This document shows positions 31,724 to 44,334 of a stretch of DNA of 64,000 bases, piece by piece. The notes under the pieces are model-generated. The model did no database searches, was not told the origin of the DNA, and was given only the letters and a program-made list of their open reading frames with translations. Numbering within the stretch: position 1 is the first letter of the stretch; the number at the start of each line of letters is the position of its first letter. The position numbers and the translations under genes are program-made. This stretch comes from Maridesulfovibrio sp. (lineage in GTDB: Bacteria > Desulfobacterota > Desulfovibrionia > Desulfovibrionales > Desulfovibrionaceae): the NCBI RefSeq assembly GCF_963677005.1, contig NZ_OY781616.1:2427001-2491000 (forward strand), read 5' to 3'.

Positions 31724-33583
31724 CTGTTCATCCCCGCGTGTGCGGGGAACACTTTGGCCAGCTGGGATTTTTCCCACTGGGCCACGGTTCATCCCCGCGT
31801 GCGCGAGGAACACGCTCAAATACTGTCAATAATTTTAATTAGTTAACTGTTCATCCCCGCGTGTGCGGGGAACACGAGATCCGGAACACCCGCGCCCGTG
31901 CGGCCAGCGGTTCATCCCCGCGTGTGCGGGGAACACTACCCTACGGTTGCTATTAACGTGCTCACGGACGGTTCATCCCCGCGTGTGCGGGGAGCACGAA
32001 TCCACAACCGGGTTCACCTGTTGCCTATTCGGTTCATCCCCGCGTGTGCGGGGAACACTTTTATGCAGACCCTGCGCAAGCTCAAGGTCGCGGTTCATCC
32101 CCGCGTGTGCGGGGAACACGCATCTCCATCATGGGTGGAAATCACCACGACCGGTTCATCCCCGCGTGTGCGGGGAACACACCCTGCGCACCCAGAACAA
32201 AACGAATTACACCGGTTCATCCCCGCGTGTGCGGGGAACACTGGTATGCCCACTGCTGTGTCACTTGAATTGACGGTTCATCCCCGCGTGTGCGGGGAAC
32301 ACAAGAAACGAAGCCTGCCGGGCATAGGCAGAAACGGTTCATCCCCGCGTGTGCGGGGAACACCACAGATAAAGACAGTAATAGACGTGAAATTTCGGTT
32401 CATCCCCGCGTGTGCGGGGAACACCATTCTTTCAGCCGGGCATTACAAGCGCATTGCGGTTCATCCCCGCGTGTGCGGGGAACACATGATTACGCGGGGG
32501 TGGGTTTCGGGAATCCACGGTTCATCCCCGCGTGTGCGGGGAACACAAATTAAGCACCGATGTTCCGTTTGTTGTGTACGGTTCATCCCCGCGTGTGCGG
32601 GGAACACCCATCCAAATATTACGCCAAGAGGCTTTCCTGCGGTTCATCCCCGCGTGTGCGGGGAACACAAATTAAGCACCGATGTTCCGTTTGTTGTGTA
32701 CGGTTCATCCCCGCGTGTGCGGGGAACACATACTCGGAGAAATGACTCTCGAAAAAATCCTCGGTTCATCCCCCCGTGTGCGGGGAACACCAACTCTTAG
32801 GTCTTTAGGAGTAAAGGCTGAACGGTTCATCCCCGCGTGTGCGGGGAACACCCTCGCGGATGAATCCAAGGGGCGCGAAAAAACGGTTCATCCCCGCGTG
32901 TGCGGGGAACACGGCAAAAGAATGATTTTCGCCGGTGTAAACGCCGGTTCATCCCCGCGTGTGCGGGGAACACATCGTAAAGACGGTAGGTGTCTGATCT
33001 GTCTTCGGTTCATCCCCGCGTGTGCGGGGAACACTTTCCTTCAAACTCGTAGCGCAGGGCGGAAAACGGTTCATCCCCGCGTGTGCGGGGAACACGCCCA
33101 TTTATAGCCGCCTAAACCGGATTTTATCGGTTCATCCCCGCGTGTGCGGGGAACACGCCGTTGATTTCGGCGAGGTCTTCCTGAATCCCGGTTCATCCCC
33201 GCGTGTGCGGGGAACACGGCAAAAAGGAGAATGTTATGCCCCCTGAAAAAGGTTCATCCCCGCGTGTGCGGGGAACACGTTCCGGAGTGTCCCATGCGGA
33301 CACTTCAAAACGGTTCATCCCCGCGTGTGCGGGGAACACGACATCCCCGCCCGGAGGCGGGGAGTACCTATCGGTTCATCCCCGCGTGTGCGGGGAACAC
33401 CCAGACGTTTTACGGCGTTTTCAAAGCCCCTGCGGTTCATCCCCGCGTGTGCGGGGAACACAGCTTACCAATGCCGGGTACAAGGTGCAGGGACGGTTCA
33501 TCCCCGCGTGTGCGGGGAACACCTCTTCCTCTGCCCTTTGCCGGGATTTGAAGACGGTTCATCCCCGCGTGTGCGGGGAACAC
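31724..33583 (-). CRISPR. Type I-E CRISPR array 1 (31 repeats, 30 spacers)
   Basis: 31 copies of a 29-bp repeat with a 61-bp period; 29 of the 30 spacers are 32 nt and one is 33 nt. On the transcribed minus strand the repeat is GTGTTCCCCGC-ACAC-GCGGGGATGAACCG. The leader is at the right, and degenerate repeats at the left end (31724, 31785, 31847) mark the old trailer end. Further variants are at 31969, 32762 and 33250. The spacers at 32547-32578 and 32669-32700 are identical. ORFs across the array are repeat artefacts. Confidence 0.98.
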
Positions 33584-33669: not shown

Positions 33670-33966
33670 CTATGCCTTTTCTTCATTCTCCAACGGCAAA
33701 AAAGACACCAGACTCATTCCATCAAAGTCGACAGGAACCCTGCGGTTTTCTCCAATTGTCCTGAACATGAAACCCTGCTCGTTGTTGGCCTTCCAGGCCA
33801 TCACGGCATTGCCCTCTCCGGTGTTTCCTTCAATGTTGCTCCAGACTGTTTCGCGGACCTTTGCCGACAAAGTCCCCACATAAACTCCGGCCCGGATTTC
33901 CAGCATCCAGACAGCTAACCTTCCTCTCAAACGCATGGGCACGTTTTCAAGCACGATGACCGTCAT
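33670..33966 (-). CDS. cas2: CRISPR-associated endonuclease Cas2 (type I-E)
   Basis: 98 residues from the ATG at 33966 (MTVIVLENVPMRLRGRLAVW), the characteristic I-E Cas2 N-terminus. RAGVYVGTLSAKVRETVW follows. It forms the spacer-integration complex with Cas1. It overlaps the cas1 end by 20 nt and is the last cas gene, directly before the array 1 leader. Confidence 0.96.
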   Translation of the reverse strand: MTVIVLENVPMRLRGRLAVWMLEIRAGVYVGTLSAKVRETVWSNIEGNTGEGNAVMAWKANNEQGFMFRTIGENRRVPVDFDGMSLVSFLPLENEEKA

Positions 33967-34861
33967 CTTCGTACCCCCTGTCGTCTTCGAATGCAGGTTC
34001 CACAACGTAAACAGGATCTTCGGGAACAGGCACTCCTCCGGCTTTCAGGACTTCCTCAATCAGCGGAATAACCTTTTTGAGCACATTCTTGCTCCTGAAC
34101 ATATCCCGACAGGCCAGCCTTGTTTCCCGCTCCGGATTCATGGGATTTTTCGCCGCCACTGAAAATGCCGCCGGAACAACGGTTTCAAACTTGATCAGGT
34201 CCGCAACATCGTAAACAAAGGAACGCGGCTTTCCGGTATGCAAAAAACCTATGGCCGGGGCATACCCGGCAGCCAATATTGCGGCTTCGCAGACACCGTA
34301 AAGGCACGATGTGGCAGCACTCAAGCACTTGTTAGGCACATCTGAATTTTCAAACTGCTTCGGATTATACTTCCGGCCGGACCAGCTTACCCGGTGCATT
34401 CCGGCCAGATGCTTGTATAAAGCCTTAACCCGCGCACCTTCCATGCCGCGCAATTGCTCCACACTTCTGCCAGCCGGCACATCGCCGTCAAACCGCAGTG
34501 CGAACATCTTGCGCACGATATTGAGACGCGCCTTTGGATCAAGGGCCAGCGCAGCCTGCCAGAGCAGTTTATCGCTCCTTGCTCCGCCGGGCTGCCCGGC
34601 AGCATAAAGCCGAACTCCGGCTTCGCCGACCCAGACCAGCAATGTCCCGGCCCTTGCGGCCAGCGTTACCGCAGCATGAGAAACTCGCGTTCCGGGTTCG
34701 AGCAGAATGCAGCAAACCCCTCCGACAGGAATATGCGTGCGCACGCCTTCGGCATCAACCAGCACAAAAGCACCGTCAAGAACGTCAAGCCGGCCTTTCT
34801 CCAGAAAGACCATGCTTGACCGTTCCTTAAGCGGTATCGGTGTAAGCTTGGGCAGGATCAT
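33947..34861 (-). CDS. cas1: CRISPR-associated integrase Cas1 (type I-E)
   Basis: 304 residues, typical of Cas1e. Its N-terminal beta domain (SSMVFLEKGRLDVLDGAFVL) precedes the helical catalytic domain with metal ligands in the SCLYGVCEAAILAAGYAPAIGFLH and FVYDVADLIKFE regions. It inserts new spacers at the leader end. Its ATG overlaps the cas6e stop (ATGA). Confidence 0.97.
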   Translation of the reverse strand: MILPKLTPIPLKERSSMVFLEKGRLDVLDGAFVLVDAEGVRTHIPVGGVCCILLEPGTRVSHAAVTLAARAGTLLVWVGEAGVRLYAAGQPGGARSDKLLWQAALALDPKARLNIVRKMFALRFDGDVPAGRSVEQLRGMEGARVKALYKHLAGMHRVSWSGRKYNPKQFENSDVPNKCLSAATSCLYGVCEAAILAAGYAPAIGFLHTGKPRSFVYDVADLIKFETVVPAAFSVAAKNPMNPERETRLACRDMFRSKNVLKKVIPLIEEVLKAGGVPVPEDPVYVVEPAFEDDRGYEDDGHRA

Positions 34862-35514
34862 GCCCGCCTCACCAGCAGCAGGCCGAAGCCGAAACCTTTT
34901 GCGCAGCCCACTCCGTTAAACAGAGCCTGCCGGAGATTATCCGGATCGGTGACCGTGGCAAAACCGCGCACATCCATGCAGGAAAGAACCACCCGTCCAT
35001 TTCCCTTCCGGAAACGCTCCTGCGAATAGGATTCTACAATCAGACCGGACCAGTTGCCGCCCTGCTCCAACTCAAAGCCCAACGTTTCGCTGCGCTTCAT
35101 AATCCACTGCACGCCGACCTCTTCCGCAATCTTGAGCCGCTGCCCCTTTACGGATGAGGTCTCGCCCTGCTCCTGCATTTTCATGCGTTGATCCTGAACC
35201 AGATCAATGCGCTGCTGCCTCCCGCTTTCATCCCGCCGTTTGACGACCGGATTGAAACGCAAGGAGAAATGCAGCCGTTCTCCTGCATCAAGTTGCGGGT
35301 TATATTCCTTCACCTGAAGATTGCGCAGAAATCCTGTTTTCACAGGCTCGCGATCGGAAACAGCAAGAAAGCTGCTCCGGTCCATTCTGCGATAAACGAA
35401 ATCCCGCTCCCGATCAGGACTGTCGGAAAATATTTTCCACAACGCCTGATGCTCTTCATAGACTCCGGCCCGCTTCATCATCACCGGGTCGAGGACAATT
35501 TTACTCATGAACAT
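34858..35514 (-). CDS. cas6e: CRISPR pre-crRNA endoribonuclease Cas6e
   Basis: 218 residues with the Cas6e double ferredoxin-like pattern; the C-terminal glycine-rich loop is GVGCAKGFGFGLLLVRR. It cuts at the 3' base of the repeat hairpin and keeps the crRNA 3' end in Cascade. It begins 2 nt after cas5e, with GGGAG upstream. It would also process the crRNA-like RNA at 39925-40004 if that is made. Confidence 0.95.
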   Translation of the reverse strand: MFMSKIVLDPVMMKRAGVYEEHQALWKIFSDSPDRERDFVYRRMDRSSFLAVSDREPVKTGFLRNLQVKEYNPQLDAGERLHFSLRFNPVVKRRDESGRQQRIDLVQDQRMKMQEQGETSSVKGQRLKIAEEVGVQWIMKRSETLGFELEQGGNWSGLIVESYSQERFRKGNGRVVLSCMDVRGFATVTDPDNLRQALFNGVGCAKGFGFGLLLVRRA

Positions 35515-35516
35515 GA

Positions 35517-36236
35517 CTACTTCTCCCCTTCGCCCGGCGGCACATGATATTCAAATCTCATCCCGAACTGACGTCTGTTGTGATCGGTCACCATGTCGCG
35601 AACGGAGTAGCGTGTGAAATCACCGTGCTCCACCTCGGTCCAGACCGGGCACTTATCCAGAGACCGGGCACCGTAAGCCTTGCGCATCTCCGGAGCGTAG
35701 CAGCCGAGAGCCTCCAGTTCATCCGCAGCGGAGACAATCTCGGGCATAAACGGAAATCCCGGCGCGCAGGACTTGCGCCCGAGGTAGACATTGAGCCGGG
35801 GGCGGTTCAGGGCTTCCGCGATATCTTTCATGACAAACGGGTGTTCACCATCAAACCAGATGCAGGCGGTGAAAGCGGCGTTCATCAGGTATTCACGCCG
35901 GGACAAAATGGTGTTCAGCCTGTCGTCCTTATCAAGCATGGTCCCAAGCTCCTGCCTGCGGGTCCTGAAAACCCTGTTCTTTTTTTCGGAAGGAACCTGC
36001 GTGGTGTGGTAGTCGAGCATGACCGATCCGGACCGGTCCTCACGGACGGCAACCCGCGCAGCACGGGTCAGATCGGACAGCAATGGATCGCCCCGGCGGA
36101 CGCCCATGGCCGCAGCCAGAAGCCCCAGCAGACCGGAACGGGTCGGACGCTGCGCAGCCGGACGGACTTCCCCCACCGCAACACTCCCCCAGCCCTGCAT
36201 GGGACCGTAAATGGTAAAAATCAGATGATCCCGCAT
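35517..36236 (-). CDS. cas5e: Cascade subunit Cas5e
   Basis: 239 residues with the Cas5e opening MRDHLIFTIYGPMQGWGSVAVGEVRP and the PTRSGLLGLLAAAMGVRRGD segment. It caps the 5' crRNA handle (ATGAACCG here) in Cascade. It lies 3 nt after cas7e. Confidence 0.95.
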   Translation of the reverse strand: MRDHLIFTIYGPMQGWGSVAVGEVRPAAQRPTRSGLLGLLAAAMGVRRGDPLLSDLTRAARVAVREDRSGSVMLDYHTTQVPSEKKNRVFRTRRQELGTMLDKDDRLNTILSRREYLMNAAFTACIWFDGEHPFVMKDIAEALNRPRLNVYLGRKSCAPGFPFMPEIVSAADELEALGCYAPEMRKAYGARSLDKCPVWTEVEHGDFTRYSVRDMVTDHNRRQFGMRFEYHVPPGEGEK

Positions 36237-36239
36237 GGG

Positions 36240-37376
36240 TTACTCCCTGATGAAATCAAGCACATCGGCAATAGTGCCTCCGGCAGGTCCGAAAGAGCAG
36301 CTGTCCACCTCGACATTGTAAATTTCATTAAAACGGGTGCGCTGGTCTTCGAGCCGCTTTACAGCTCCTTCCACTGTTATACTGTCCGGTTTTTCGCCGT
36401 AACGATCGCTGGAGCCAAGGGGCTTGAGGTAGGCGACAGAAAGGTTGCGGGGCTGAATATCGCCTTTTTCGGCCAGGCAGTAGGAAGCCCAGGCGCGGGA
36501 ACCGAAGCTGTTCTGCTTGCCGGACGGGCTTACGGTGCAGGCGGCATTCACAAGCGCGGCAACGGCACGGTCGGCAAGGCCCGCATCACCGCCGAGGTTT
36601 TCCTTGAGCAGTTCACGGTCCACGCAGAGATATAGGTAAAAAAGCCCGGCACCGAATTCAGTAACGCCAAGGTGTCCGGCTCCGGCATCATCACGGTTGA
36701 GGTCGTCCACTGCGGTAAAGAAATCATCTTCCACCGCAGCCTTATGCACGGTCATGGCATGGGCAACCTGTGCGGCTGCTTCGATGTTGTGCCGGTTGCT
36801 TGAGGCGAGCATGCGCCCGAAAAGCGCCACGTCCGCAGCGGAACAATCACGGCAGAGCAGTTCAAGCTGCTCCGTGGAAGGTTCTTTTCCGCTCTCGCGG
36901 CATTCTTCCACCAGCGCGGAAGCCAGCTTCAGTTCTTCGGGACTCAGGTGGGCAAGCTGCTCGGTTTCAAGGGATTCCATTCTGGTCTGCTCGTCAGCGT
37001 CCTTTTTCTTTGCTTCCGGCTTGAGTTTACCGAACACCCCGCCAATTGAACGCCCGATAGCCAGAGCATCCTTGTCCTTCAGTCTTGCGAGAGAGCCTGC
37101 GGCATCAAAATCCTTGAGCACATCGGCCAGTGCGGCGCCGTTAAGCAGCGCGCGATAAACGTATTTGCCTATTTCCTTGGTCCGGATGCCGAGATTACCG
37201 GCCAAAGCATCCTGAAAGACCTCGGATGTACGCCATGCCCGTTTGAGGCTCTGGGACGAAACACGCAACCTCTGGGGATCGCCCATAATCACGGTCTTGG
37301 GACGTCCGAGATCATCACGGTTGAGGTTGGATGCGGGGTAACTGGTCAATATATGAAGCTGAATGAAACGTGACAT
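36240..37376 (-). CDS. cas7e: Cascade backbone subunit Cas7e (CasC/Cse4)
   Basis: 378 residues. The N-terminus has FIQLHILTSYPASNLNRDDLGRPKTV and QRLRVSSQSLKRAWR, both diagnostic of CasC. Six copies form the helical backbone along the spacer. It lies 21 nt downstream of cas11. Confidence 0.96.
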   Translation of the reverse strand: MSRFIQLHILTSYPASNLNRDDLGRPKTVIMGDPQRLRVSSQSLKRAWRTSEVFQDALAGNLGIRTKEIGKYVYRALLNGAALADVLKDFDAAGSLARLKDKDALAIGRSIGGVFGKLKPEAKKKDADEQTRMESLETEQLAHLSPEELKLASALVEECRESGKEPSTEQLELLCRDCSAADVALFGRMLASSNRHNIEAAAQVAHAMTVHKAAVEDDFFTAVDDLNRDDAGAGHLGVTEFGAGLFYLYLCVDRELLKENLGGDAGLADRAVAALVNAACTVSPSGKQNSFGSRAWASYCLAEKGDIQPRNLSVAYLKPLGSSDRYGEKPDSITVEGAVKRLEDQRTRFNEIYNVEVDSCSFGPAGGTIADVLDFIRE

Positions 37377-37397
37377 ATTATATCTCCTTATGAAAAT

Positions 37398-37913
37398 TTA
37401 TCTTTTAACTGCGTAATATGCTTCGGCCCAACGGCGGCGGGAATAGTCATTCCAGTAGCAGCCGCCCTCGATAAGCCCTATAAGCCCGGCCTTTCCGCCC
37501 ATAAGCCTGATCATCCTGAGCAGCATGATGTACAGGGAATCCTGCTCTTCATCCGCAATGGAAAGCAGCTTGCGGAAACGCACATCTTTCATGTCCGCGC
37601 TGCCCTTTTCCGATTTGGCAAAGAGTTCGGCAAAATGGTTATTGTTTTCCAGATTCCTGATATGGGAAATCAGCCCCAACGGAACAGCTAGGCGTTCGAG
37701 ATCAGATTCATCAAAATCGAATCCGCCCTGTTCCAGCCTGCTTACTATCCCGCGCCTGAAATCATTTGAAACGTACACATCAAGAGGATTCTTTTCCCTG
37801 CGCAATCCGGCCCTTTCCGCACGGTTTTCCTGCAGTTCCCCGTGCCATTGAATCAAAATTCCGCGCAACCTCTTAGACTGTTCGCTGTCCTTTAGAACAT
37901 CCGACAATTTCAC
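37398..37913 (-). CDS. cas11: Cascade small subunit Cas11 (CasB/Cse2)
   Basis: 171 residues, alpha-helical, with the Cse2-type C-terminus (IMLLRMIRLMGGKAGLIGLIEGGCYWNDYSRRRWAEAYY). A dimer stabilises the R-loop in Cascade. Its ATG overlaps the cas8e stop (ATGA). Confidence 0.94.
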   Translation of the reverse strand: MKLSDVLKDSEQSKRLRGILIQWHGELQENRAERAGLRREKNPLDVYVSNDFRRGIVSRLEQGGFDFDESDLERLAVPLGLISHIRNLENNNHFAELFAKSEKGSADMKDVRFRKLLSIADEEQDSLYIMLLRMIRLMGGKAGLIGLIEGGCYWNDYSRRRWAEAYYAVKR

Positions 37914-39508
37914 TTGTTGTCTCCTTTTATGATCAGTCCGTTCTTGGTCAGATAGCTGTAGTTGAAAGCTCCCAGTTTCCGACCGGCCGAAATGTACCGC
38001 TCATACCGTTCCGGCGGGATATGGGTCGACATCACCCACTCCTGAAACAGTTTCCCGGCCATGGAGTGGATATGCCGGGCCCACGCATCCAGAAGTTCAG
38101 CTATCCTTGCATCGTCATCGATACGGGCCAATTCTGCGGCAAGCTCATAAAACCGCGCGGAAGTACCGGCCCAGAAGGACGTACCCACATTGCTGAAAAA
38201 GGTTTTATCCACCTTGGCCTGATTCTTACCGGCTTCGTTGATAAGCGCATCCTTCACCGCGCCTACAAGATTGCTGCGAATCTTATCCGCAGCCATGACC
38301 ATCAGTTCAATATTAACCCTGAACAGATCGTCATCAACTGTGCGGTGGAATGGGAATTCATGCTCGCACCACTGCACGGCTTTCATATTATCCATGTCGA
38401 AACCGGCGACGCTTATTTCAGCATCATAAAGCTCACTGCCGGCATGGAGCACACAGGCGGCAGGAACCATGCGGCTCTTTTTACCGCCATCATCAACCTG
38501 CCCGTACACAAGACCGAGCCAGTGGCTGTATGCGGAAATATTGGCCTGTCCCTTCACGGAAAGGGAGGGACTCCCTGTCTGCACCCGATACGGTGTCAGG
38601 GGATGGTTCCATGTGTCGGAGTAGTTGTACCCTGAAGGACGGGTAAGGTAGGTAGGAACGGAAATATCGGACTCAGCACCGCAAAGAGAACAGCTGCAGC
38701 GCCCGGCTTTTTCCTCCAGCACTATCCTGCGCGGCATGGACCAATAGACATGCAGCGGATGAACGTCCTCCGGTGTGGTCTGCTCAGACTTCTCACTGGT
38801 CCGTGTCGGGGCAGCCCATGGAAAGACATTTCCGGGAATTTCAGCATCCGGGGGCAATCCGTGCGCATGCTTATTCGAGAGGGGAAGCACATTAAGCCAG
38901 ATTTTATCCCAGAGGGTGCCCCCTGCTTTCAAATCATCAAATTCCCCGGCCTTGACCAGAGTGGACAGAGGTCCGCCACCCCGCAACGAGGTCCTGTGGC
39001 CCTTGCCCCCGGAAGGAGCAAAAGCCTGCAAGGTAAACAGACTCATGGCCGCACAGGCCGGGCAAAGACTTTCAACCTGCCCGCGTTTGTTGAAGAAATC
39101 CGTATTCAGCTTCAGCGTATTGCCGCCCGGAGCATCGATAAGAAGCGCAGAAACATTGTTCCGGGCGGGTTTGTCCGCCTCGGACATGGTCAAATCCTGC
39201 ATGAACCGGGGACGTTCCCCGAACAGATTGAAGTATGACTCGTAGGCCAGCATGGCGGATTGCAGATCATCCTGAGCAGGAGGGTTGGTAAACCCATGCA
39301 GCCAGTCCTTTTCCTGATCAGGAGGCCGGACGGTCTGGATCAGTCCTATCAGAAATTCCATAAGGGCCGCCCGGAAATCGGGCCTCGGCGGGATAAGATC
39401 AACCGGAGGAGAACCGCCCCCGGTAATTTCGAAAGGAGCAATGCGGTCATGGCTTCCATCCGCTCGGATTATTGGCAGCCATTTTTTTTTAAGAATGTTA
39501 TACCTCAT
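37910..39508 (-). CDS. cas8e: Cascade large subunit Cas8e (CasA/Cse1)
   Basis: 532 residues from the ATG at 39508. The ATG four codons upstream (39520) is less likely because the sequence between the two, GGAGAG, is itself a ribosome binding site for 39508. YNILKKKWLPIIRADGS and the ALMEFLIGLIQTV segment are typical of CasA. Cas8e reads the PAM and recruits Cas3. It opens the Cascade-adaptation operon. Upstream lies the creT/creA-like region, with a terminator between. Confidence 0.95.
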   Translation of the reverse strand: MRYNILKKKWLPIIRADGSHDRIAPFEITGGGSPPVDLIPPRPDFRAALMEFLIGLIQTVRPPDQEKDWLHGFTNPPAQDDLQSAMLAYESYFNLFGERPRFMQDLTMSEADKPARNNVSALLIDAPGGNTLKLNTDFFNKRGQVESLCPACAAMSLFTLQAFAPSGGKGHRTSLRGGGPLSTLVKAGEFDDLKAGGTLWDKIWLNVLPLSNKHAHGLPPDAEIPGNVFPWAAPTRTSEKSEQTTPEDVHPLHVYWSMPRRIVLEEKAGRCSCSLCGAESDISVPTYLTRPSGYNYSDTWNHPLTPYRVQTGSPSLSVKGQANISAYSHWLGLVYGQVDDGGKKSRMVPAACVLHAGSELYDAEISVAGFDMDNMKAVQWCEHEFPFHRTVDDDLFRVNIELMVMAADKIRSNLVGAVKDALINEAGKNQAKVDKTFFSNVGTSFWAGTSARFYELAAELARIDDDARIAELLDAWARHIHSMAGKLFQEWVMSTHIPPERYERYISAGRKLGAFNYSYLTKNGLIIKGDNK

Positions 39509-39550
39509 TATACTCTCCATAATTTATATTTATTGACACATAAAAGTATT

Positions 39551-39596
39551 TGAAGAAAAGGGCAACCACCCTACTTATATTCGGCAGGTTGCCCTT
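39551..39596 (-). terminator. Terminator of the creT-like unit
   Basis: Perfect 10-bp stem (AAGGGCAACC / GGTTGCCCTT), 19-nt loop, followed on the minus strand by TTCTTC. It begins 4 nt after the 27-aa ORF stop and isolates it from cas8e. Confidence 0.8.
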
Positions 39597-39600
39597 AAGG

Positions 39601-39684
39601 TCATAATACGACGATAACGATAACGCTACCGTCGGTCATGTGTATGACAGCAATGACAAGCCTATGCTTGTTTCGAATGTTCAT
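39601..39684 (-). CDS. 27-codon ORF, creT-like toxin candidate
   Basis: A mini-ORF of 27 residues, MNIRNKHRLVIAVIHMTDGS followed by VIVIVVL, then TGA. It has a strong ribosome binding site (GAGGAGGG, 7 nt before the ATG) and a terminator directly behind it. The peptide has a basic N-terminus and a very hydrophobic Ile/Val C-terminus. Possibly limiting codons (CGA, AGG, ATA, TTA) occur. Its upstream DNA is matched by the pseudo-spacer of the neighbouring crRNA-like gene. CreT toxins of known CreTA systems are encoded in this place and size class, acting as tiny peptides or RNAs. Toxicity here is inference; a regulatory leader peptide is the alternative. Confidence 0.65.
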   Translation of the reverse strand: MNIRNKHRLVIAVIHMTDGSVIVIVVL

Positions 39685-39714
39685 AATAAGGCCCTCCTCT
39701 TAGCTTGAATTTCG

Positions 39715-39801
39715 CCCCAAAAGGAAGTAGTCTTTTTTAGTTTACAGACTCACCTTTCGGGGTGATTTACAGCCTGAGGGTGTGGCAACACCTTCAGGCT
39801 G
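39715..39801 (-). promoter_or_regulatory. Structured 5' leader of the creT-like ORF
   Basis: A strong hairpin at 39770-39801 (CAGCCTGA / TCAGGCTG with inner GGTGT / ACACC). It is followed by a nested fold at 39715-39762: CCCC / GGGG outer pairs, AAAGG / CCTTT, and AGTCT / AGACT within. The leader leads straight into the GAGGAGGG site. It could control translation or protect the RNA. Confidence 0.55.
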
Positions 39802-39834
39802 ATTTATTTAGTCAATACTCCGACCAAGAGGTGT

Positions 39835-39867
39835 CGTCAAATAATATTTTCTAAACTATCTATTCTT
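39835..39867 (-). promoter_or_regulatory. Candidate creT promoter with crRNA-like target site and AAG PAM
   Basis: Two promoter readings are possible: TTGACG (39840-39835) as a -35 with a weak TATTGA 17 nt on, or TATTAT (39846-39841) as a -10. The protospacer-like target runs leftward from 39864 to 39844 and matches the pseudo-spacer at 17 of 21 positions; its PAM 39867-39865 reads AAG. A bound Cascade complex would cover either promoter reading, so repression is the expected outcome. Confidence 0.65.
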
Positions 39868-39924
39868 AGCGAAATAAACATTTTTACGAACATTACACTG
39901 AAACAACGAACAATCTGATATACT

Positions 39925-40004
39925 AAAAAAAATCCCCGCATAAGCGGGGAACAATTAATTTCTCAACTATCTACTCGGATCATCCCCACACAGATGGGGA
40001 ACAC
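39925..40004 (-). ncRNA. creA-like crRNA-mimic (degenerate repeat - 21-nt pseudo-spacer - degenerate repeat)
   Basis: Leftward order: pseudo-repeat 1 at 40004-39976 keeps GTGTTCCCC and GGGGATGA-CCG of the array repeat, with a rearranged loop. A 21-nt pseudo-spacer follows (39975-39955). Pseudo-repeat 2 at 39954-39926 keeps TGTTCCCCGC-TTAT-GCGGGGAT, and eight T residues follow it. Cas6e should process it, and the second hairpin doubles as an intrinsic terminator. The pseudo-spacer begins with AGTAGATAGTT and matches the DNA upstream of the 27-codon ORF. Confidence 0.7.
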
Positions 40005-40231
40005 TGCGATCCTACACCTGTAGACCAGAAGAGTATCTACTTCTTATCGGCTCTTTTCTTTTTAATCAACAAGTCCTCTCTACGCGCACACCCTCATTTC
40101 TCAAGAATCATCCAAAAGACCTATGCAGACGAGGATGTTGACTGCCAGCCTCCTTCAACATACATTTTTTAGGGTTCTCCTGTTTGTAGGGGCCCCTCGT
40201 CCGTTTCCCCGGTCAGCTTTGTGCTGACCGG
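40005..40231. other. Region upstream of the creA-like gene / trailer of array 2
   Basis: No ORF. On the minus strand TTGTTG and GATAAG with 18-nt spacing (about 40073-40044) could be the creA-like promoter; this is weak. An 11-bp hairpin (CCCCGGTCAGC / GCTGACCGGGG, 40207-40233) abuts the last degenerate repeat of array 2. Confidence 0.4.
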
Positions 40232-41541
40232 GGATTTTCAGTGCCGCATGCGGGGAACACATTTGCGGGCTTCAGCAGCCAATCAAAGCTGGCGGTTCAT
40301 CCCCGCGCATGCGAGGAACACAGACAGCGCAGTTCAAGGGTACAATGTCTGATCGGTTCATCCCCGCGCATGCGGGGAACACATTGGCGCACACTTCTTC
40401 ATATTCAAAGTAAGCGGTTCATCCCCGCGCATGCGGGGAACACGAGGAGGTCGTTTATGGCTTCTATCGTTATTACGGTTCATCCCCGCGCATGCGGGGA
40501 ACACCACAGGGTTCTCCGGCCGCAAGATCAACTCGCCGGTTCATCCCCGCGCATGCGGGGAACACGCGATAAATTCGCCGGTTTCGAAATCCTGCCGCGG
40601 TTCATCCCCGCGCATGCGGGGAACACTCTTCGCCGGTGAAAATTACGGTACCGCTGGCCGGTTCATCCCCGCGCATGCGGGGAACACTGGTGCGAGAAAA
40701 TTGATGACCTGCGGCAAGCCGGTTCATCCCCGCGCATGCGGGGAACACGTGAGAGTCACGATGTAAAGCCCGTTCAGGTCCGGTTCATCCCCGCGCATGC
40801 GGGGAACACCTGAAAACCTCGGAGACCAGGCCGAAGCGTACCGGTTCATCCCCGCGCATGCGGAGAACACCAATAAGGGCGCGAATTGCCTTTTTGTCAT
40901 AGCGGTTCATCCCCGCGCATGCGGGGAACACGCAACGGATACTATTTTGAGCGTCTTAGCGAACGGTTCATCCCCGCGCATGCGGGGAACACCATGTTAC
41001 GAGCGAAGGGGCAAGGTACGCAATCGGTTCATCCCCGCGCATGCGGGGAACACCCTATACGATCCCCGTCATTCTTAATTCTCATCGGTTCATCCCCGCG
41101 CATGCGGGGAACACCTGCACATGGGAGCCAATGCCCGTCGCAATTTCGGTTCATCCCCGCGCATGCGGGGAACACTTATCGTTGCTGACAGCAGCACAAG
41201 TGGTTTGCGGTTCATCCCCGCGCATGCGGGGAACACCATGAAGCTGCTGGCCCGGACCATCCAGAATCCGGTTCATCCCCGCGCATGCGGGGAACACCTG
41301 TTGTCGAGGAATTGGATTTTGAAACCATTCGGTTCATCCCCGCGCATGCGGGGAACACAAGTGTAGAAGCTCTGGGCGGGATCCTTTTAACGGTTCATCC
41401 CCGCGCATGCGGGGAACACCACTTGAGAGTCTTTTCAGTCACAAGCTGGTACGGTTCATCCCCGCGCATGCGGGGAACACATCGCAATGTTTGAGGGGCC
41501 AGATCAATTTCTCGGTTCATCCCCGCGCATGCGGGGAACAC
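40232..41541 (-). CRISPR. Type I-E CRISPR array 2 (21 intact repeats plus one degenerate)
   Basis: 21 repeats of 29 bp from 40293 to 41541 with 32-nt spacers, and a half-decayed repeat at 40232-40260 that keeps only its 3' half. The minus-strand repeat is GTGTTCCCCGC-ATGC-GCGGGGATGAACCG, differing from array 1 only in the hairpin loop. Variants occur at 40293 and 40842. The leader is at the right. It sits between cas3 and cas8e. Confidence 0.98.
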
Positions 41542-41640
41542 TCTTACTGTAAGCACCAAATCTTATTAACCTTTTTACCCAACATAAAAAATGCCAACTT
41601 TTTTCACCGATTCAGGACCAATTATTGCATTGGCTGATTT
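41542..41640 (-). promoter_or_regulatory. Leader of CRISPR array 2
   Basis: An AT-rich stretch to the right of the newest repeat, homologous to the array 1 leader, ending before the cas3 stop. It should carry the pre-crRNA promoter and the integration signals. Confidence 0.82.
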
Positions 41641-41694
41641 TTATAAAACAATACTCAAAAATCACCCCAAAGATCAATCATTACTCTCCGCTCA

Positions 41695-44334
41695 TCAGAC
41701 AACTTCCAACCCCGTCTGCGAACTATAAAGCACCTCAACATCATCCCCGTTGATATCAACGGCCTGCCCGGACCACATTCCCTCTTCTCCCTCATGCAGA
41801 ACAAGACACTCGCACCAGCGTCCCTTATCCGGCATTCTGGATTTCAACTCTTCGACATCATCCTCAAGCCCCTTATTTACCGCCTGTTTTACCTTCTTTG
41901 CGCTCACCCGGACCTCAGAACGCATACAATCTTTCACGGTAACAGACTCTCCGCCGGAAGAGGCCCAGAAGGACAGTTTCCCGTTTTCAAACTTCAAAAG
42001 CCGCAACTGACGGGACTCCTCACCAAGCCTTGTGGGTGTCAAGGTATCATTATCCCACTGCCCTTCATTGGAATTGTATCCGGAACTGAAATCCAGCGAG
42101 GCGAACCCGGCGAGGGATTTTCCGGCAACTTCTTCGCCGAATGCCTTCAGCTCCTGCTCATCAAAGACCGCAGGGGCCTCCACTCCGGGACCGTATACGC
42201 TTTCCACCAGCTCACGGGCTTCCTCCGGCAGACGGATTGCGCCTTTATCCTTTAACAGGCGAGCCGTATTCCACAACATCGCAGGATGCTTATATACATA
42301 CTGTCCTATATCAAAGAGACGTGAATACCATTCTTCATCCGGCTCATCCACCGGATCGGGCATAAGAATTTTCATCAGCGGAGATTTGTAATCCCGTGGC
42401 CTGCAATCCCTTGTATGGCGATGGCATCTGCCTGCACGCTGAATCATGAGATCCATGGGAGCAAGGTCGGACAGCAGCAGATCAAAATCCAAATCCAGTG
42501 ACTGCTCGACAACCTGCGTGGCAATAAGAATCTTCCCGGACCTCTGCTCCGGCACACTTTCCTTACCGAAAACCTCCAGCACCCGCTGCTCGATTTTCAT
42601 ACGGTCCAGACCAGTGAACCGGGCATGAAAAAGCATCACGTCCTTTTCCGGCAGGCCAAATTCTTCAATCAGCCGAGTTCGTGCGGCAACAGCGTCAGCC
42701 ACCGTATTCCTTATCCAGCATCCGCAGGCTCCCGCCTCATGGACCGAAACAAGGCTGTGAAACATCTCATCCTCATCATGAACGCACTCAAGAGGCATGT
42801 TTATCTGCCTGCCGCTTTCAAGGGCAATTTCCTGCAGAGCTTCATCCTGCAGCCGGGTCAGCAGTGGAAAACCGCCCTGCTCCGGCGCAAAGGGGGCAAC
42901 ATCGGCCCCGGCCAGTTCCCGGCCCTTTGACCATGCATTCAAAAACTTATCCCGTAATACTGAAGGAAGTGTCGCGGAAAGCAGGATGGCACTCCCGCCC
43001 TGCGCGGCGTGAAAGGTCAGCAGGTTCGCGAGCAGATGTCCGGTATAGGCATCGTAGGCATGCACTTCATCCACGATCAGGAAAGACCTGCTCACCCCCA
43101 GAAGACGCAAGGCCTGATGTCTGGAACTCAGTATGCCGAGCAGGGCCTGATCAATGGTCCCGACCCCGCACGGAGCAAGCAGCGCTTTCTTGCGGTTATC
43201 GGCAAACCATGAATGGCAGACCGCACCTCCGTCATCCTCAAAAGACTTCCGCTCCTCACCCATGGGCATGATGCTGTCCAGATATTCGTCATGCAGCGCC
43301 CGGCCTCCGTGAGCCAGAACAAGCGAGGAATCGGCATCCTTGAACAGGTTGCGATAGGTTCCGGCAAGCCGGCTGTACATGGCGTTGGCCGTGGCCATGG
43401 TCGGCAGACCGATAAAAAGCCCCTGCGAGACTCCGCAGCGCATGGCCCGATGAGCCGCAAGCACGGCAGCCTCGGTCTTGCCGCCCCCGGTCAGATCTTC
43501 CAGAATCAACAGTTCCGGCCCATGCTGTTCCGGCAGGTCGATCACGGCCTGCTGCAATGAACTCGGCGACATGTCCTTGGAAAGATACTGAAACAATTGA
43601 TGGAAACTCTTTGTGTCAGCAGAAGCAGCGGGAAGAATCCTTGATTGCCGGACAGCACGCTCAGCTTTTTTCTGAGCTTCATTCCAGTAGTCGGAAATGG
43701 AAGTCGGATCGGAATCCGGCCCGAACCAGATATCATTGGAACCGATCCAGTCAGAAAGGATGAATAGCCCGGCGGCGGCCCATGAAAGACTCTGGAAGGA
43801 TTCATCGCGCAATCCGGCTGGAAAGTCATGCTTCAGAAAAAATGATGCAGCCTCATCATTAAACTGCAGAGCATCATCAGCACAGGGACCGAAAAATCTT
43901 TTCAGACCTGCCGGCTTCTGCATGCCTACGGAAACAGGGCTGCCGTGATGCGCAAGAGCGGCTACGGCAATCGGATTAAAAATTCTGGCGGATTCGCATC
44001 CTGTATTCCTGTAAAGCCTGTAGGCCGACCAGAAACGGGTTCCGAGCAAAGTGTGGTGCTCCCTGCCGTTCGGTTCTGGAATACCGTTCAAGACGGCAAG
44101 CTCGGGCTTCTGGTGCTGGAAACAAAGAGAAAATTTTCCTAAATCATGGATACAGGCCAGATAAACAAGCAGTTCTTCAGTATGATCAGGCTCAAGCGGT
44201 GACAATACCGAAACTCTGTCCCGCAATGCCGGATCGGACTGCAGCAGCAGCTTCATAACCGCGGCAACTTCAATACAATGTCGGCGTAAATGATGCCACT
44301 GACCGTCTTCAAAAGTTTTTCCCCAGTACTGCAT
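41695..44334 (-). CDS. cas3: CRISPR helicase-nuclease Cas3 (type I-E)
   Basis: 879 residues. An N-terminal HD nuclease domain has IHDLGKF (His63-Asp64) and the ALAHHG motif. The superfamily 2 helicase has Walker A in LTGGGKTEAA near residue 283, the DEVHAYD box, SATLP, and the C-terminal QVVEQSLDLDFD and QRAGRCHRH motifs. A Cas3 C-terminal domain follows. It degrades DNA opened by Cascade. It is separated from the Cascade genes by array 2. Confidence 0.97.
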   Translation of the reverse strand: MQYWGKTFEDGQWHHLRRHCIEVAAVMKLLLQSDPALRDRVSVLSPLEPDHTEELLVYLACIHDLGKFSLCFQHQKPELAVLNGIPEPNGREHHTLLGTRFWSAYRLYRNTGCESARIFNPIAVAALAHHGSPVSVGMQKPAGLKRFFGPCADDALQFNDEAASFFLKHDFPAGLRDESFQSLSWAAAGLFILSDWIGSNDIWFGPDSDPTSISDYWNEAQKKAERAVRQSRILPAASADTKSFHQLFQYLSKDMSPSSLQQAVIDLPEQHGPELLILEDLTGGGKTEAAVLAAHRAMRCGVSQGLFIGLPTMATANAMYSRLAGTYRNLFKDADSSLVLAHGGRALHDEYLDSIMPMGEERKSFEDDGGAVCHSWFADNRKKALLAPCGVGTIDQALLGILSSRHQALRLLGVSRSFLIVDEVHAYDAYTGHLLANLLTFHAAQGGSAILLSATLPSVLRDKFLNAWSKGRELAGADVAPFAPEQGGFPLLTRLQDEALQEIALESGRQINMPLECVHDEDEMFHSLVSVHEAGACGCWIRNTVADAVAARTRLIEEFGLPEKDVMLFHARFTGLDRMKIEQRVLEVFGKESVPEQRSGKILIATQVVEQSLDLDFDLLLSDLAPMDLMIQRAGRCHRHTRDCRPRDYKSPLMKILMPDPVDEPDEEWYSRLFDIGQYVYKHPAMLWNTARLLKDKGAIRLPEEARELVESVYGPGVEAPAVFDEQELKAFGEEVAGKSLAGFASLDFSSGYNSNEGQWDNDTLTPTRLGEESRQLRLLKFENGKLSFWASSGGESVTVKDCMRSEVRVSAKKVKQAVNKGLEDDVEELKSRMPDKGRWCECLVLHEGEEGMWSGQAVDINGDDVEVLYSSQTGLEVV

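Follow-up and report, generated by a model that had tools for sequence, protein, structure and literature searches.

In a Maridesulfovibrio sp. genome (G000, complete, 4.26 Mb), a compact unit lies between CRISPR (clustered regularly interspaced short palindromic repeats) array 2 and cas8e of the type I-E CRISPR-Cas locus. We consider it likely, with a probability of about 0.7, that this unit is an addiction module like CreTA whose toxin is a translated peptide. The stretch analysed, below called the window, comprises 64,000 nucleotides of contig NZ_OY781616.1 (positions 2,427,001 to 2,491,000). The evidence can be read from the sequences themselves: a guide and its target beside a protospacer adjacent motif (PAM), mismatches with the periodicity of a Cascade seed, recurrence of the layout, an intact Cascade, and selection on the amino acids of the peptide in relatives.

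In the scheme that we infer for transcription, processing, repression and toxicity at the window locus, a mini-CRISPR (40004-39925) would be transcribed and cut by Cas6e into a CreA-like RNA resembling a CRISPR RNA (crRNA). Bound in Cascade, this RNA would use its seed to pair with the promoter flanked by AAG (39864-39833), blocking transcription without completing the R-loop needed by Cas3. The repressed unit would be an mRNA with a structured leader encoding a 27-residue peptide, and loss or inhibition of Cascade would release the peptide, leading to cell arrest or death. In haloarchaea, partial pairing of CreA with a promoter represses without cutting by Cas3 (PMC8501985, PMC9458426), and in the type I-E system of Citrobacter rodentium the CreT open reading frame (ORF) is toxic only if translated (PMC12055562).

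Putative guide RNA gene and its promoter target

On the minus strand, the module (40004-39556) consists of a degenerate repeat (psiR1), a 21-nt pseudo-spacer (psiS) and a second degenerate repeat (psiR2) running into a T8 tract, then about 60 nt, the PAM and the target, a promoter, two leader hairpins, a Shine-Dalgarno (SD) sequence, the ORF and a terminator, after which come the SD and the start of cas8e. The repeats, psiS, T8, leader, SD, 27-codon ORF and terminator are all located on the strand and at the places given in an initial annotation of the window, which had proposed a CreTA-like module. The annotation also rightly put the psiS target next to a PAM (AAG, 39867-39865); the target is, however, not immediately upstream of the ORF, as had been stated, but in a promoter, 149-180 nt upstream of the start codon.

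As in a creA, whose one or two degenerate repeats retain the Cas6 hairpin and an 8-nt handle, both pseudo-repeats keep their hairpins, and psiR1 is predicted from the sequence to leave the 5' handle AUGAUCCG after cleavage by Cas6e. In a search of the whole G000 genome, psiR1 was the sole good type I-E repeat outside the two arrays. Positions 1, 3-11 and 13-17 of psiS match the target, with a G.T wobble at position 2 and mismatches at 12 and 18; nine of the ten positions of the CreA seed (1-5 and 7-11) are identical, next to AAG. The target is the only match to psiS with three or fewer mismatches elsewhere in the 4.26-Mb genome, and none of 300 shuffles of the region yielded a PAM-adjacent match as good. 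A promoter scan returned the same -35 element as inspection by eye with a shifted -10 element, not significant over shuffles. Judged by the shuffles, the uniqueness in the genome, and the recurrence of the layout and the PAM described below, the match of psiS to its target exceeds chance.

A nucleotide search of relatives with the module DNA gave no real homologue by identity, and homologous loci were therefore sought by aligning the type I-E loci of relatives through cas8e. The same layout, whose recurrence the initial annotation had left to be checked, is present upstream of cas8e in 13 further Desulfovibrionales genomes (G028, G108, G025, G036, G056, G040, G043, G052, G116, G319, G326, G329, and G249). 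Together with G000 this makes 14 loci, which are related and not strictly independent events; psiS is different in every one of them. The PAM is AAG at 13 of the 14 targets. In G326 it is AAA by inspection, and the automated PAM-restricted search returned no target for this genome.

Summed over the 14 loci, the numbers of mismatches between psiS and its target at crRNA positions 1-20 are 0, 1, 1, 0, 0, 10, 0, 0, 3, 1, 5, 11, 4, 2, 6, 5, 1, 11, 6, and 6. They concentrate at positions 6 (10/14), 12 (11/14) and 18 (11/14), and positions 1-5, 7 and 8 are nearly perfect (2 mismatches in 98). The bases at positions 6, 12 and 18 flip out of crRNA-DNA hybrids in type I systems. The pattern matches the experimentally determined seed of CreA, which requires positions 1-5 and 7-11 and tolerates mismatches at 6 and 12 (Cheng et al., PMC8501985). 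This six-base periodicity across the aligned loci, our strongest evidence, is the mark of pairing selected for Cascade. Identity ends exactly at the PAM; since it drops at once to 25% and 22.5% in the flanks of psiS, an origin of the self-match by duplication was ruled out. The distance from the PAM to the start of the -35-like hexamer is 21-37 nt, which places the hexamer within the 32-bp protospacer or just beyond it. The seed positions, PAM, promoter geometry and recurrence thus agree with the CreTA logic proposed in the initial annotation, which at the level of guide and target is strongly supported by the comparison.

About half of the comparable Desulfovibrionales loci have no module, and in many Desulfovibrio-type loci cas8e directly abuts the upstream gene, leaving no intergenic space. 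No such module with GTTCCCC-type repeats was found in the type I-E loci of other Desulfobacterota. Some individual loci differ in detail. In L004, the psiS target is present as three near-copies in tandem, each preceded by AAG, ahead of the creT-like promoter (-480 to -395 before cas8e). In L003, from a same-genus relative, the module is replaced by a 62-aa hydrophobic ORF between the array and cas8e (L003:1209-1397). Possible modules outside Desulfovibrionales were seen in L035, L040, and L061. At -480 to -40 before cas8e, the Desulfobacterales type I-E locus L040 combines a mini-CRISPR of two repeats with an ORF of 51 aa that includes a hydrophobic stretch; the target match there is by eye only. 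At about -560 to -400 before cas8e, the Pectobacterium type I-E locus L061 has an oppositely oriented repeat and pseudo-spacer with an AAG-flanked target, in an arrangement similar to that of C. rodentium.

A peptide family behind the targeted promoter

An ORF of 27-36 residues follows the targeted promoter at nine loci (G000, G028, G108, G036, G056, G040, G329, G249, and G319) and, less clearly, in G052. In pattern, the encoded peptides have a basic N-terminus followed by two aliphatic stretches, with an acidic or DG turn between them in most cases. The three gap-free pairs among G056, G249 and G329 have proportions of non-synonymous and synonymous differences per site (pN/pS) of 0.21/0.89, 0.28/0.53 and 0.33/0.66. 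By this measure the peptide is under purifying selection at the amino-acid level in these genomes, and the excess of synonymous change means that the peptide matters there. For the G036 member, AlphaFold2 with the alignment of the family as input gave a beta-hairpin with a mean predicted local distance difference test (pLDDT) score of 87; this fold, with a basic N-terminus, is the one predicted for the family.

Searched against 297 genomes at order level, a profile of the nine peptides matched these loci and no others, the next best match having E 0.006, and 345 genomes at phylum level added none; for the members themselves this search is circular. With each member left out in turn, the peptides of G036, G056, G249 and G329 were clearly recovered and that of G040 marginally. 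The peptide was absent from the phages searched, and the module DNA from the plasmids and phages searched.

The downstream ORFs mostly have a strong SD, a structured leader and a terminator. The leaders are 125-165 nt long and more stable than shuffles at nine of ten loci (z-scores of -3.6 to -9.5; -1.4 in G028); for the window leader, the minimum free energy (MFE) fold has z = -5.5. The motif GTCAA precedes the SD in 7 of 11 loci, its distance to the start codon being 29-37 nt in six of them and 59 nt in G025.

Alternative explanations and the contents of the slot

Several observations weigh against a CreTA module with a peptide toxin. Position 2 of psiS forms a wobble instead of a Watson-Crick pair, and the module is absent from the nearest relative of the same genus (G001), where an array occupies its place. 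The G000 peptide itself scored weakly in the leave-one-out search (E 4.7, with 12 unrelated segments ranking above it), and the peptides of G108, G028 and G319 were not recovered. Moreover, the peptide ORF is always co-oriented with cas8e and lies about 80-127 nt before it, as a leader would, and a promoter scan gave no convincing separate cas8e promoter past the terminator in most loci. As for the conservation of the ORF, raised in the initial annotation, nine loci have a peptide ORF and three show selection; the window's own peptide is tied to the family by position, layout and residue pattern and only weakly by sequence statistics. As a translated CreT, the window ORF has in its favour the strong SD and the selection in three relatives.

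The co-orientation and closeness to cas8e, and the missing downstream promoter, would also be expected under CreR-type autoregulation, raised as the alternative in the initial annotation. Here, Cascade would be steered to a promoter whose transcripts also reach the cas8e operon past a leaky terminator, and the ORF would be a leader peptide or an attenuator rather than a toxin. A mini-CRISPR in G116/L009 does target the cas8e promoter itself, about 215 nt before cas8e and with no ORF between; it fits the CreR layout and is a CreR candidate in Desulfovibrionales. In the window, however, the guide aims at the promoter of the ORF unit, and a terminator stands between this promoter and cas8e. The terminator hairpins are strong (-17 to -40 kcal/mol), the peptide is under selection in relatives, and in G043 a RelE-like ORF takes the slot. 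For an amino-acid attenuator, runs of codons would be needed rather than a conserved pattern of basic and acidic residues. A pure attenuator is not supported either, as no upstream partner of the terminator arm that could act as an antiterminator was better than shuffles in ten loci (p 0.07-0.98). We regard CreR-type autoregulation as a rather unlikely explanation of the window locus, although toxin guarding and a CreR role could both operate there together.

In another variant of CreTA the toxin would be the RNA rather than the peptide: the mini-ORF would act through RNA structure or by titrating a rare tRNA, as in Haloarcula and Acinetobacter. The known I-B and I-F CreT act as RNA despite their conserved mini-ORFs, the leader here is strongly structured, and the ORF does contain the rare codons CGA and TTA. 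According to the codon table these are isolated, and a rare-codon run after the start, sought as the signature of the tRNA-sequestering type, is not present in the window ORF; an RNA toxin is less likely for lack of consecutive rare codons. The codons of conserved Arg residues also differ among relatives, and synonymous changes per site exceed non-synonymous ones, leaving this variant quite improbable. Finally, the unit might be a functionless fragment of a decayed array, its self-match due to chance or duplication. The repeats are degenerate, and psiS at 21 nt is shorter than the array spacers, but we give this explanation hardly any credence in view of the six-base periodicity of mismatches over the loci, flanks at chance identity, the AAG PAM at all loci but one, and a target unique in the genome.

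Besides the peptide, the targeted slot may hold other genes. The ORF that follows the targeted promoter in G043/L017 is 98 aa long (L017:1179-1472, plus strand) and has weak, sub-threshold matches to YafQ (E 0.019) and RelE/StbE (E 0.02); it is a possible protein toxin under the guard of a CreA-like RNA. Its AlphaFold2 model from the single sequence was poor (pLDDT 45), and no plasmid or PDB relative was found. G025 and G326 have merely 12- and 16-residue ORFs in the slot. It is about an even bet that the guarded slot of Desulfovibrionales type I-E loci is exchangeable, holding the new beta-hairpin family with its structured leader, a RelE-like protein, or nothing (that is, CreR), in which case cas autoregulation and CRISPR addiction would be alternative states of one RNA-guided switch. 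In G148/L111, which has no mini-CRISPR, a ParDE-like pair was seen by eye at -800 to -100 before cas8e, along with a possible start-less remnant of the peptide gene whose match is not significant.

Known systems and the architecture of the locus

The kind of system is already known, including in type I-E. The CreTA of C. rodentium (PMC12055562) is likewise of type I-E and intergenic before casA/cas8e, with a psiS target beside a PAM in the promoter and no rare-codon run; its short ORF, located between cas3 and casA, must be translated. In contrast to the window, its CreA is on the opposite strand with the PAM ATG, whereas here the creA-like gene and the ORF are co-oriented, the PAM is AAG, and an array separates cas3 from the module; the two systems are compared by layout, not by peptide sequence. 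With the I-B CreTA of Haloarcula hispanica and Halobacterium hubeiense (PMC8501985), the module shares degenerate repeats (two in H. hubeiense), a position inside the cas locus, and a seed (1-5/7-11) complementary to the toxin promoter, repression by Cascade being demonstrated there and putative here. The toxin of these I-B systems is an RNA whose ORF of 4-6 codons has rare codons in tandem, unlike the window ORF with its 27 codons and no such run. Similarly, the Acinetobacter I-F CreTA (PMC10097628) occupies the intergenic site between cas3 and the large-subunit gene and has a conserved mini-ORF with an SD, but this ORF is of the 11-codon class (33 bp), acts as RNA, and is divergent from creA.

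As in CreR (reviewed in PMC12737573), the promoter to which a crRNA-like RNA would guide the Cas effector lies at the cas locus. CreR targets the cas promoter itself, whereas the promoter targeted here serves first a separate small ORF that has a terminator of its own. A protein product repressed by CRISPR is also the idea of CrePA, a protein toxin under CreA (PMC12737573), to which the RelE-like ORF of G043/L017 may be nearer than the window's peptide; this likeness is by description only.

To the initial annotation, the instance and its toxin had looked new. A translated type I-E CreTA had already been published (C. rodentium, PMC12055562), but the Desulfovibrionales set, the peptide family, its structured leader and the apparent slot exchange appear new in the literature examined, the C. 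rodentium CreT being set apart by description. CRISPR addiction modules are known from few organisms, and a translated CreT has been shown once in this literature, in C. rodentium. If our reading is true, the module would join these few and provide a new peptide family that can be tested. Fourteen related loci in which the seed rule of Cascade is kept and the peptide family is, in some members, under amino-acid-level selection would form a comparative system, opening the questions of what the peptides target, how a module can be lost safely, and how toxin guarding and cas autoregulation interconvert. Mismatches at positions 6, 12 and 18 beside a PAM offer a simple sequence test for such modules elsewhere.

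Features of the type I-E locus and the candidate CreTA-like module (window coordinates)
Feature	Coordinates	Strand	Basis or remark
cas3	41695..44334	-	profile match and PADLOC
CRISPR array 2, 61-nt period, between cas3 and module	40292..41541	-	
Candidate creA promoter, TTGATT-17-TAAGAA	40041..40069	-	by eye; weak; promoter scan scored another site best
psiR1, degenerate I-E repeat, GTGTTCCCCATCTGTGTGGGGATGATCCG	39976..40004	-	23/29 identical to array-2 repeat
psiS, 21-nt pseudo-spacer, AGTAGATAGTTGAGAAATTAA	39955..39975	-	32 nt in array spacers
psiR2, second degenerate repeat, hairpin, GTTCCCCGCTTATGCGGGGAT	39926..39954	-	also intrinsic terminator stem
T8 run closing the creA-like gene	39925..39932	-	merges with psiR2
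PAM, 5'-AAG	39865..39867	-	
psiS target (protospacer, 32 bp) within creT-like promoter	39833..39864	-	
Promoter, TTGACG-17-TATTGA	39812..39840	-	by eye; -35 39840-39835, inside protospacer; -10 39817-39812
Leader hairpin I, 5' end of predicted transcript	39770..39801	-	MFE fold
Leader hairpin II	39715..39763	-	MFE fold
SD, AGAGGAGGG	39692..39700	-	strong
creT-like ORF, 27 aa, MNIRNKHRLVIAVIHMTDGSVIVIVVL	39601..39684	-	related ORFs in same slot of relatives
Intrinsic terminator after ORF	39556..39596	-	hairpin about -20 kcal/mol, T-rich tail
cas8e (cse1), first gene of Cascade operon	37910..39508	-	PF09481, E 1.9e-101; Cas8e in PADLOC
cse2, cas7e, cas5e, cas6e, all intact	34858..37913	-	profile matches and PADLOC
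cas1, cas2	33670..34861	-	profile matches and PADLOC

The type I-E system of G000 is intact and encoded on the minus strand in the order cas3, array 2, module, cas8e, cse2, cas7, cas5, cas6e, cas1, cas2, and array 1. All Cascade genes were identified and are intact, and the module lies inside the type I CRISPR-Cas locus, as CreTA modules do; cas8e probably starts at 39508. Rfam gave no match near the gathering score in 39300-41700. The two arrays of the window (31863-33583 and 40292-41541) have slightly different repeat variants, with a GTGTGC versus a GCATGC loop, and share a 132-nt leader-side repeat with 77% identity.
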